A stretch of DNA of 64,000 bases from Pseudofrankia sp. DC12. GTDB lineage: Bacteria > Actinomycetota > Actinomycetes > Frankiales > Frankiaceae. The translations under genes were made by a program, and so were the position numbers. Shown one piece after another: positions 13,778 through 30,682 of the stretch. The DNA lies in NCBI RefSeq assembly GCF_000966285.1, contig NZ_KQ031391.1, positions 4,294,540-4,358,539 on the forward strand, in the 5' to 3' direction. The number at the start of each line of letters is the position of its first letter. Positions within the stretch are counted from its first letter, which is position 1. The notes under the pieces are model-generated. The model saw only the letters and a program-made list of their open reading frames with translations. It searched no databases and was not told the origin of the DNA.

Positions 13778-13831
13778 TGATCGCCGTCTCGGCCTTCTGG
13801 TGGTTGCAGCCGGGCCTGTTTCGCAGCGATC
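13778..13831. repeat. Dispersed palindromic repeat, partial copy
   Basis: It begins TGATCGCCGTCTCGGCC and continues CTTCTGGTGGTTGCAG, matching the left arm of the elements at 25635-25708 and 28938-29013. The right arm is degraded here (only GCGATC remains). Confidence 0.6.
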
Positions 13832-13961
13832 CGAGGGTCGAGGCGGCGATCGAAGTGAAGGGCCCGACCTTGGCGACAACGTCGGGTTGCCACTTGCCTG
13901 CGGGTCGATCAGGCCGTCGCATGTGGCTGCGACTCGGAAGGTGCCCTGGCTGTGGGCTCGG

Positions 13962-25634: not shown

Positions 25635-25708
25635 TGATCGCTGTTTCGGTCCTCCGGTGCTCGTGATCTGGCTCCGCTGGGGACCACCAGGGGCACAAAT
25701 GGCGATCA
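25635..25708. repeat. Dispersed palindromic repeat, copy 2
   Basis: The left arm reads TGATCGCTGTTTCGGTCCTC and the right arm, read on the minus strand, TGATCGCCATTTGTGCCCCT then GGTGGTCC. The arms are similar rather than identical, about 74 bp end to end. It lies in the rplA-rplJ gap (663 bp), which otherwise holds only the rplA terminator and the rplJ leader. Confidence 0.65.
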
Positions 25709-26799: not shown

Positions 26800-27189
26800 A
26801 TGGCGAAGCTCTCGACCGTCGAGCTGCTCGACGCGTTCAAGGAAATGACGCTGCTTGAGCTGTCCGAGTTCGTGAAGCAGTTCGAGGACACCTTCGGCGT
26901 CACCGCCGCCGCGCCGGTCGCGGTTGCCGCGGTCGCCGGTGGTGGCGGCGCCGAGGCCGCTCCGGCCGAGGAGGAGAAGGACGAGTTCGACGTCATCCTC
27001 GAGGCCGCTGGTGACAAGAAGATCCAGGTCATCAAGGAGGTCCGCGCCCTGACGAGCCTCGGCCTCAAGGAGGCCAAGGACCTCGTGGACGGCGCGCCGA
27101 AGCCGGTCCTGGAGAAGGTCGCCAAGGACGCCGCGGACAAGGCGAAGGCCGCCCTCGAGGGCGCCGGCGCCACCGTCACCGTCAAGTAG
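26800..27189 (+). CDS. rplL: 50S ribosomal protein L7/L12
   Basis: The 129-residue protein has the N-terminal dimerisation helices ([20 protein letters not shown]), the Ala/Gly-rich hinge (about 45-62) and the C-terminal factor-binding domain with [20 protein letters not shown] and [17 protein letters not shown]. Multiple copies form the stalk that recruits translational GTPases. Ribosome-binding site GAGGAAGGAACC. A terminator hairpin about 100 nt downstream is followed directly by a group II intron remnant. Confidence 0.98.
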
Positions 27190-27293
27190 TCCCCGCGCGG
27201 CGGTTCCGGCCGGATCGGCGAGGTAGCTCCGAGATCGGCGTAGCCGATCCGAGTTGCCGTCGAGCTGGCCGGAACCCTGGCCGCGCACCCGCC

Positions 27294-27324
27294 GGGCCGG
27301 CGGCGCCATCCGCGCCGCCGGCCC
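27294..27324 (+). terminator. rplL terminator and likely intron target
   Basis: A perfect 13-bp stem (GGGCCGGCGGCGC and its complement) with loop CATCC, then GTCCCGTT. The intron-like GTGCGCCCGG begins 8 nt after the stem, the placement expected for group IIC introns, which insert next to terminator hairpins. Confidence 0.8.
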
Positions 27325-27728
27325 GTCCCGTTGTGCGCCCGGCATGGGCAGTCGTTTGGAGGTGGAAGTCCTCTGGGGGAGGCGGCGGTGCCAACCCCGA
27401 GCCGGAGGCGACGGCGTCACCGTGAGGTGGGGCTGGGAGGAAGCCCGAGGCGAGACCCCTGCACCGAGGGACACGAACCGTGTAGGAGGCGTGCCGGTCG
27501 GGTGAGCCTGCAATGGAAGGTGAAGCCCGTCATCGCCAGAAGGCTGGTACGTGGACACGGCGGGCGTAGGGGGACAGCGGCTGTTCTTACCCGGGGAGGT
27601 CTGTCCGCACCGTGATCCGTGCGTCCGCGCGTAGCACACATGGGGCCTGCGTGGACTGTGGCAGAAGTCAGCAGAGGTCGTAGTACCAGCCGGGATCTGT
27701 CAGATGGCAGGAAGGGCCGAACGTCAGG

Positions 27729-28915
27729 ATGAGCGGACGAGGGGTGTTGCTCGTGCCGGTCGCGGGGATCGCTGTCACCCCGGGTCAGGGGCTGCTGTGG
27801 GAGGAGACGGTGCATCCGTCGGAGACCACGGTGGGGCGTAGTGGCTGGTCGGCGCGCACTGCCGAGTCTGTTTCCGAGCCGATGGCTGGCCTGTGGGACC
27901 AGGTGTGGTCGCGGGCGAACCTTGTCGGTGGCGTTGCGGCGTGTCGAGGCCAACCGTGGCGCGCCGGGGGTGGACGGGATGACCACGGCCGAGTTGCGGC
28001 CGTGGCTGGTCGAACACTGGCCGGCGGTCCGGGAGGCGCTCGATACGGGAGTTACCGGCCTGCGCCGGTCCGCCAGGTGGTGATCCCGAAGCCTGGGGGC
28101 GGGCAGCGGATGCTGGGGGTTCCCACCGTTTTGGACAGGTTCCTTCAACAGGTGCTCGCCCAGGTGCTGGGTCCGCTGTTCGATCCGCATTCCTCGGGGT
28201 CGAGTTTCGGGTTCCGGCCGGGGCGGTCCGCTCATCGGGCGGTGCGGGTGGCCCGGCGGGCGGTGGCCGAGGGGAGGAAATGGGTCGTTGCCGTTGATCT
28301 CGACCGGTTCTTCGACCGGGTCGGGCATGACGTGTTGATGGCCCGGGTCGCGCGCCGGGTGGAGGATCGCCGGGTGCTGCGGCTTGTGCGCCGTTACCTG
28401 GAAGCCGGGATCATGGTCGAGGGTGTGAGGCAGCCGACGGAGGCGGGAACCCCGCAGGGGTCTCCGCTGTCGCTGTTGTTGTCGAACGTCATGTTGGACG
28501 ACCTGGACCGGCTGTTGTGGGAGCGGGGGCACCGGTTCGTCCGCTATGCGGACGATGTCCGGGTGTTCGTGGGTCGAAGCGGGCTGGCCAGCGGGTGTTG
28601 GACTCGGTGGCCAGGTTCGTGGAGGACCGGCAGCGGTTGCGGGTGAACCGGGACAAGTCGTGGGTCCGGCCTGCCCAGAAGGCGACGCTGCTCGGCTTCG
28701 GGTTCTACTTCACGCGGGACGGAGTGAGGGTGCGGGTCGCCCCGGAGGCGATCGCGCGGCTCAAGCGACGGCTGCGGGAGTTGACCAGTCGCCGGTGGCG
28801 GGTGTCGATGGCTGACCGGCTCAACCGGCTCAACCGGCTCAACCGGCTCAACCGGCTCAACCGGCTCAACCGGCTCAACCGGCTCAACCGGCTCAACCGG
28901 CTCACCAGTTCCGCG
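27729..28915 (+). pseudogene. Group II intron reverse transcriptase/maturase, three frameshifts
   Basis: Stitching frames recovers a class C-like intron protein: LSVALRRVEANRGAPGVDGM, VVIPKPGGGQRMLGVPTVLD, SSFGFRPGRSAHRAV, VVAVDLDRFFDRVGHDVLM, GTPQGSPLS and the catalytic RYADD, then SKRAGQRVLDSVARFVED and NRDKSWVRPAQKATLLGFGF. Frameshifts are placed near 27922 (+1), 28049 (-1) and 28568 (-1). The maturase X domain is cut short: after RRWRVSMADRLNRLN the sequence becomes a 9-bp tandem repeat coding (LNR)n. Key catalytic residues remain, but no continuous protein is possible. Confidence 0.85.
28816..28904 (+). repeat. 9-bp minisatellite (CCGGCTCAA) x about 10
   Basis: Nine perfect tandem copies of CCGGCTCAA and a tenth differing at its last base run from 28816. 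They code RLN repeats in the frame of the decayed maturase, where the ancestral sequence probably had a single RLNRYLRGW segment. The repeat seems to be an expansion of that codon trio. Confidence 0.95.
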
Positions 28916-28937
28916 CCCGCCAAACTCAATGTCGCTG

Positions 28938-29013
28938 TGATCGCTGTTCTGCCCCTCTGGTGGCTGCGGAACAGCCCTCGGTTACGACCAGCCGAGGGCC
29001 GAAACGGCGATCA
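28938..29013. repeat. Dispersed palindromic repeat, copy 3
   Basis: The left arm is TGATCGCTGTTCTGCCCCTC and the right arm, read on the minus strand, TGATCGCCGTTTCGGCCCTC. It spans 76 bp with CTGGTGG near the centre-left and a CCCTCGG/CCGAGGG inner stem. It abuts the end of the decayed intron. Confidence 0.7.
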
Positions 29014-30682
29014 GGAGAACGCCGGGACCGGGTGGGAGGTCGGCGGGGTGCGGCCCTGGCGCCGGGCGTCGTCATAGGCCGCCGCGCCTGAGTCTCGCTC
29101 CGTCCGCCGGTTGCCGCTGGTAGTCAGCCCAGTGCGGCGGAGTTGGCCGCTGGCGGCCGAACACGGCCCGCGGGGACCCCGGGGCCACCCCCGGAACGCC
29201 GCAGCGCCGCTGAGGGCCTCCTCGCCCCGCTGGCCGGGGCCGGCCCGGACCCGCGCCCACCGCGCCGCGCCAGGCGGGCCCCGAGGCATGCCCCGGGGCC
29301 GGTACGCGCCGAGTCCGGCGCTGGCCCGGTCCAGGTGAGATGGGTTACGGTCCATCACCGGCGCTCGCGGAACCGCGTGCGGGAGCCGGCCGCGGCGGGC
29401 GCGTGCCGGCCGCCGGCGCTGGGATGGCCGAGCGTGATCGCGGCCGCGCCTGGCGGGGCGTCTGGACGGCCGCCGACGAATCGACATCGCGTGCGGTGGC
29501 CGGCCAGGCGGAGTTGTCCGATGCTGGTAGGACCGTCCGGCGTACTACTCGGGGCTGGCGGGATGCGGGGCGCGCGACGGCGACGGGCCTTCCGGGCGAG
29601 TGGGCCAGGGGCGGCACGAGCGGCAGATCGGTAACTAACCGCTCATGGGGTCCGTCTGAGGGGTTGACTGCATCGCCCACAACGGAGTTCCATCATTTGG
29701 CGGACCACCGCCGCGATCTGGCGAAGTCGGGCAGGCTAACGCCCTGTGAGGAGCGCCCCGTAGAGGGCGCGCCGCGCGGGTATCCGGCCCGGCGTCAACC
29801 AGGCGGCACGCGGCCGGTCGCGCCGGGTCTCGACGAGGCCGGCTCGGATCGGCAGCGGCGGCGAAGACGCGAAGCGGTGGCCAGGAAGGCCGCGCGGTGC
29901 CCTCGGGCGCCTGGGCTGGCAGCTGACAGGAAGGCGGGACAGGGCGGGAACACGGCAGGTCGGATGCAGGCAGCAAGATCGCCGAAATACAGCGCGAGAG
30001 TGTGCACCACGAACATGACGACGGGGCTTGTCGGCAGTGCGGCCTGAGGCTACACTGCTAGTTTGCGCTGTCCTTTTCGTTGCACTGGGCCTGTCAGATC
30101 CGTTCCCGCCACCCGTGGTGGTCTCGCCGGCATCCCTCCCGCTGGGCCGTCGGCGCCCCGCCATCTCCGCCGGGACCGGCGTCTGATGCGTCCCGTGCGA
30201 TGACCGGGAACAGCGCACCCGGTTCGCCGGCTTGCTTCCCGTAGGGACAGCTTCGCCGGAGGCCGTGACGTCTGCCAGGGTGCGGTTCTCAGACCCGGTG
30301 TCGCGCTGCGCGCGACCCGAGCGGGTCAGGGGCGGCTTCTGAGGTCTCACGTCCGGCCGAGCCGGTCATCCGGACCGCACGACCGCCTGCCCGCCCAACT
30401 GAGCACCGCCTGCCTGCTCGCTGGCCTTCAGCCAGCGTCGCCAAGACCCGATGCCGGGGAACGTCCCGGATCTCCCGCTCCGCGCGTGTCGCGCGTCACG
30501 GGGGTCCGACGTCCCGGGCTCCGGATGTCTGGCGTGAGGGGGAGTGGAGGTGCTCACACCGAGACCACCGGCCGACTACCCCGCTGACGCCGCCCCCAAA
30601 CGCGGCGAGACACTGATCACCTGACCACCCCGACGGCTCGTCGGCATCTCCCGCCCGATGCCAGGCCACCGGAAGGACCACC
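29014..30682 (+). other. Long rplL/intron to rpoB intergenic region
   Basis: This is 1.67 kb with no supported gene; the open frames on both strands are Arg/Pro/Ala-rich without motifs. It contains a good promoter at 30028-30056 and, from there, a leader of about 620 nt before rpoB. No tRNA, repeat cluster or domain V-like hairpin was seen. Confidence 0.55.
30028..30056 (+). promoter_or_regulatory. rpoBC promoter
   Basis: TTGTCG (-35, 30028-30033), a 17-nt spacer and TACACT (-10, 30051-30056) match the primary sigma consensus of actinobacteria. The sequence after the -10 box (GCTAGTTTGCGCTGTCC) resembles the start region conserved before rpoB in streptomycetes and mycobacteria. Transcription probably starts near 30063. 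Confidence 0.75.

Follow-up and report, generated by a model that had tools for sequence, protein, structure and literature searches.

A decayed group IIC intron behind the predicted rplL terminator of Pseudofrankia sp. DC12

Introduction

Group II introns without domain V neither splice nor move, and the GsI-IIC reverse transcriptase (RT) is an active enzyme. Insertion behind terminators is an established placement of group IIC introns, with some found at attC sites (PMC8919778, PMC4424553). A preliminary description of the DNA analyzed here had invoked this placement, correctly, when it proposed a decayed group IIC-like intron between rplL and rpoB in what it called an unusual location. The neighboring gene does appear unusual; since the placement of IIC introns behind terminators is itself established, nothing else about the location is. 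In the literature that we searched, we found no group II intron behind an rplL terminator, and none of the Frankia group II intron papers was, judged by title, about this element.

The introns of Streptomyces sp. GQFP (copies L045-L047, all three behind hairpins) resemble the element described here in their 5' end, the type of their domain I RNA, their RT core, their hairpin placement and the pairing between IBS1 and EBS1. Unlike them, the present element lacks its 3' half (the RT/maturase end and domains V and VI), and its RT is frameshifted. We refer to the whole 64,000-nt stretch that was analyzed as the window; it comes from a genome consisting of a single contig of 6,884,336 bases. Very probably, the window holds a IIC intron that retrotransposed behind the rplL terminator hairpin and then decayed to a 5' relic.

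Results

The gene for ribosomal protein L7/L12, rplL (26800-27189, + strand; an ORF of 129 aa matched in 35 of 35 family genomes), is followed on the same strand by a hairpin at 27293-27325, where a 14-bp stem without mismatch (27293-27306 paired with 27312-27325) encloses a 5-nt loop. The 45 nt 5' of the intron fold with -36.2 kcal/mol, a stability that none of 2000 stretches of equal length drawn at random from the window attains, in agreement with the perfect rplL terminator hairpin claimed at the outset. Its status as a predicted terminator, and with it the group IIC trait of insertion directly behind a terminator hairpin, is read from this fold. The intron starts 7 nt 3' of the stem, at position 27333, with the 5' end GTGCGCCCGGCATGGGC. 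The intron-like 5' end noted earlier, GTGCGCCCGG, is thus in place, at a spacing of 7 rather than 8 nt. RNA, RT, alignment and tree together delimit a relic at 27333-28904 (+ strand) that comprises only the 5' part of a group IIC intron, its last 90 nt being a tandem array. Within the interval first proposed (27294-28934), the final 30 bases belong to a dispersed repeat and not to the intron.

A covariance-model search, suggested in the preliminary description, found two pieces of group II RNA on the + strand, both 5' of the RT core. The domain I core (RF02001, 27416-27585) scored 108.5 bits (E 8.9e-22) in Rfam, and a second piece (RF01998, 27634-27717) scored 36.1 bits, just above the gathering score of 35. 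As we read the RF02001 consensus, it describes an IIC-type RNA, and the relic in this respect carries the domain I expected of group IIC. RF02001 lies beside most of the close RTs that were scanned and beside 0 of the 20 Frankiaceae RT loci scanned; it occurs in 5 of 35 family genomes, with one match each, and the single match in the host genome is the one in the relic. At the DNA level, the relic is 71.9% identical to a Streptomyces sp. GQFP intron over 1505 alignment columns. We also considered a copy of the multi-copy group II intron of the host genome, and this was ruled out: that intron is of the RF01999 type, and its RT is 44-46% identical to the remnant.

The class C RT remnant (27771-28814, + strand), which has kept its YADD motif, was delimited by alignment and by matches to TIGR04416. 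Its pieces cover model positions 3-45, 46-222 and 222-316 of 353 in order, each scoring below the model's own cut-off of 300 bits (main piece, 242 bits). Alignment with the intact Streptomyces sp. GQFP RT places breaks in its frame near 27925, 28050 and 28572, as many frameshifts as were noticed at first sight, and the maturase end is incomplete (maturase domain E 0.058, under the cut-off). With three frameshifts and its C-terminal part gone, the intron-encoded protein is not intact. The RT core is 79% identical to those of the Streptomyces sp. GQFP introns, 71-75% to those of Gordonia tangerina and two other genomes of the class and 35-49% to the aligned Frankiaceae RTs (L001, L012-L040; L008, 28%). 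Close kin are rare, with matches at E 1e-50 or better in 2 of 392 other genomes of the class (best 7 candidates per genome); the best place in a plasmid search, on a Paenarthrobacter plasmid, was 66.7% identical. The nearest solved RT by sequence is GsI-IIC RT (PDB 6ar1, 249 bits), which, unlike the frameshifted remnant, is intact and active; 5hhl, 5hhj and 7uim follow at 185.7-187.1 bits, LtrA at 99 and 6me0 at 90.

The RT phylogeny that had been called for (29 rows: the window and 28 RTs with known intron RNA type, with RTs lacking a typed RNA left out) groups the window with all 17 RF02001 rows at a support of 100/99. Its placement inside this clade is unsettled, and the RF01999 and RF02003 rows form separate groups. 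The types of L046, L047 and L001 were taken over from L045 and L002, and L036 was dropped as too short. Profile, solved-structure match and tree agree on a class C RT, and the RF02001 RNA and the RT clade bear out the proposed decayed group IIC-like intron between rplL and rpoB. The possibility that the RT belongs to a non-intron family (retron, DGR or antiviral), for which weak matches of at most 41 bits to models of Drt2 and retrons might speak, has a vanishingly small probability given the far higher score of the main piece against TIGR04416, the group II RNA upstream and a position in the tree among group II RTs. For retron and antiviral RTs, the profiles, solved-structure matches and tree rule it out.

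The target site can still be read, as had been asserted, in the hairpin and in the pairing of the 5' exon with the intron. Alignment of 5' ends and a pairing test place EBS1 (AATGG) in the domain I loop at 27512-27516, and the final 5 nt of the 5' exon (27328-27332; both on the + strand) are an IBS1, CCGTT, that pairs with it at 5 of 5 positions, one pair being G-U. A single further position within 200 nt pairs equally well with EBS1. Across 21 introns, 90 of 105 IBS1-EBS1 positions pair (G-U included), compared with a mean of 53.9 after shuffling, and 0 of 20,000 shuffles reached as high; when only the 16 distinct combinations were counted, the figures were 69 of 80 and 41.2, again with 0 of 20,000. 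These tests cover 21 of 26 loci (L050, L055, L061, L065 and L066 were excluded because the first pattern missed their 5' end or loop), and one of the introns, L058, has only 3 of 5 pairs. Recognition of the 5' exon by IBS1-EBS1 is therefore a further group IIC trait that the relic retains. When the hairpin fold control was applied to the relatives, 12 of 20 passed at 5% or better; not every member of the clade therefore sits next to a terminator.

Another genome of the genus (G007) carries an IIC-type 5' fragment (L010, about 1481-1697, - strand) that is 78% identical to the relic over query bases 2-226, shows 5 of 5 IBS1-EBS1 pairs and lies 4 nt behind a hairpin following an acyl-CoA thiolase gene. 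It is shorter than the relic (RF02001, 40.5 bits) and lies behind another gene, which argues for an independent insertion.

The rplL-rpoB gap was compared in the 16 of 19 relatives that have both genes (L070, L071 and L073 do not; the rpoB start of L083 was extrapolated), and all 16 are without the intron. In the closest relative (G002, locus L067), the homologue of the terminator is kept (49 nt, 84%) and the intron is absent. There, the terminator is followed by 108 nt of other DNA, and homology returns at window position 29088, the start of host intergenic DNA (29088-30682, + strand) that is mostly homologous to this empty-site relative. The 7 nt between stem and intron have no clear counterpart in G002, where the 108-nt stretch stands instead. 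No intron sequence was found in the gaps of the other 15 relatives (BLAST, E 1e-3). The gap measures 3496 nt here versus 1900 nt in G002, as expected from the earlier statement that the intron lengthens the rplL-rpoB spacing, but the gap is long in the family anyway (880-2220 nt in the 16 relatives). As a side observation, G002 has a palindrome of its own directly 3' of its copy of the terminator, and a minisatellite resembling CCCCGGCCCCACA lies close by; the rplL-rpoB gap seems prone to repeats.

On the 3' side of the insertion, a promoter-like block (30028-30056, + strand; TTGTCG-17-TACACT, with the -35 at 30028 and the -10 at 30051) is conserved in every one of the 17 Frankiaceae gaps compared. 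The aligned promoter stretch starts 466-921 nt upstream of rpoB (673 in the window; 921 is the value for L083, with its extrapolated start), a distance of hundreds of nucleotides that implies a long leader. In the window, the stretch 30028-30100 consists of the promoter-like block followed by GCTAGTTTGCGCTG. Because this block is downstream of the insertion, an effect of the intron on rpoB appears unlikely from the sequence.

The 3' half of the intron is missing. No domain V (RF00029) match was found between 27180 and 30690 at E up to 10, whereas 5 of the 6 relatives scanned have one about 1.83-1.85 kb from the 5' end at 39.0-43.7 bits, scores that show RF00029 to be marginally sensitive to IIC domain V (L045, at 39.0 bits, is just below the cut-off of 40). 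An exact IIC-type domain V pattern, strict enough to miss a diverged copy, matched nowhere in 8 genus genomes. As domains V and VI are missing, we file the element as a relic and not as a working member of group IIC. Homology to the intact introns ends within the tandem array, and both the 3' end of the relic and the 3' exon are lost; the insertion can therefore be checked on one side only.

A split intron with its domain V elsewhere was considered and rejected: there are 11 RF00029 matches in the genome. Seven of them score 50.7 bits, six lying beside the six RT copies of the other intron and the seventh (L100) being 100% identical to the RF01999 intron over 459 nt; the remaining four loci (L096, L104, L105 and L106) show no similarity by BLAST to the window or to any of four IIC introns. 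Apart from the remnant, RT matches in the genome at E 1e-20 or better are confined to the six copies of the other intron, which are 46% identical. Thus, with no second RF02001 match either, we found no sister copy able to mobilize the relic. The element, with its frameshifts, truncated maturase end, lack of a domain V nearby and single RF02001 match, is dead, and by analogy with other group II introns lacking domain V it should neither splice nor move.

At the point where the RT breaks off, a 9-bp unit (ACCGGCTCA) is repeated 10 times without error (28815-28904, + strand; repeat scan). A three-unit pattern of this array, allowing up to 2 mismatches, is absent from the 7 other genus genomes (8 searched), and the perfection of the array suggests a recent expansion. 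The array is in frame with its RT piece and would add a repetitive (NRL)n tail. The relic might have kept a role, either as an expressed RT fragment with such a tail and the preserved YADD or as a spacer or insulator between rplL and rpoB. Three frameshifts, a missing C-terminal part and the failure to find a domain V all speak against this, as do the promoter-like block downstream of the insertion in 17 of 17 gaps and the 16 relatives that do without the intron, and we regard such a role as extremely improbable.

In place of the intron 3' half, the array is joined to a palindromic dispersed repeat (28905-29059, ends approximate; core 28938-29013, + strand), defined by a genome search with a core model built from 41 copies. 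The host genome gave 140 matches (E up to 0.01, best 150 candidates), which collapse to 82 places, many copies of the palindrome having been hit on both strands; two further matches to the model fall in the window, at 13778-13852 and 25635-25708. Across the 8 genus genomes, with the best 138 candidates taken from each and the strands unmerged, so that the same double counting applies, there were 132 (host), at least 138, at least 138, 98, 84, 59, 26 and 1 matches; the 27 family genomes that belong to other genera had 0 under the same limit of 138 candidates each. Several copies end like CTAGTGCC...GGCACTAG, resembling short inverted repeats, and these ends hint at a miniature transposon. Rfam gave no match for the window copy. 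A conserved RNA structure was rejected: the consensus fold has 5 pairs, none of them changed on both sides, and one structure drawn by hand, with a badly chosen second helix, was not distinct from shuffles. Among the matches listed in a search of the literature on Frankia repeats, none corresponded to this family by title or start of abstract.

A dispersed repeat next to a relic without its 3' end would also fit an intron fragment that was carried in by another mobile element or a rearrangement, for example together with the repeat, which is present at 82 places in the genome. We judge this very unlikely: the intron begins with an exact 5' end, a perfect hairpin stands 7 nt away, the IBS1-EBS1 pairing is intact, and a homologous hairpin stands in the empty-site relative. 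Retrotransposition into the terminator site, followed by decay, remains the reading that we adopt.

The same repeat is met again at the RF01999 intron of this genome, which is present as six RT copies sharing 1927 identical nt and one internally deleted copy. In 6 of the 7 copies (L002-L006 and L100), the intron lies inside the palindromic repeat at one shared position. The 5' flank stops after roughly the first 14 bases of the core (TGATCGC onward), and once the two flanks are joined, the repeat carries on from there. The joined flanks of these six score 33-69 against the repeat consensus, values reached by 2-12 of 3000 random joins, a background that includes genuine repeat copies of the window. 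The L001 copy, with a background-like score of 15, is not clearly in a repeat. From these flanking sequences, the repeat family looks like the landing (homing) site of the RF01999 intron. There is a precedent for introns in palindromic repeats: REPs are found in association with 2 of the 9 group II introns of Pseudomonas putida KT2440 (PMC1525189). The repeat copy beside the IIC relic has a whole core and is not occupied by an intron.

Discussion

The best explanation for this locus begins with a group IIC intron that would have retrotransposed, presumably by reverse splicing and reverse transcription, to just behind the rplL terminator hairpin. Hairpin and IBS1-EBS1 pairing, both still present as target marks, would have directed the choice of the site, and the one empty site suggests arrival after the split from the closest sequenced relative. 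Three frameshifts in the RT and loss of the RT/maturase end and of domains V and VI would then have followed, and on the 3' side, where sequence was lost, a tandem array now abuts a copy of the palindromic repeat. The relic is probably without effect on the host, since it lies after the terminator and before the promoter-like block of rpoB itself.

We also entertain, as an improbable speculation, that the junction of relic, array and repeat is no coincidence. The 3' half of the IIC intron might have been lost in an event at the landing repeat of the RF01999 intron, such as an aborted or template-switched reverse transcription; introns and genus repeats would then act on one another and might even be dispersed jointly.

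Taken by itself, the relic is an unremarkable molecular fossil of a familiar type, though one whose landing site can still be read. It offers a clean case, based on one empty site, of a terminator-targeting intron that settled beside essential genes, seemingly at small cost, and later decayed. The larger by-product is the high-copy palindromic repeat, found in one genus among the 35 family genomes and apparently the landing site of a second intron. Whether introns use such repeats as safe havens is testable in this one small set of genomes.
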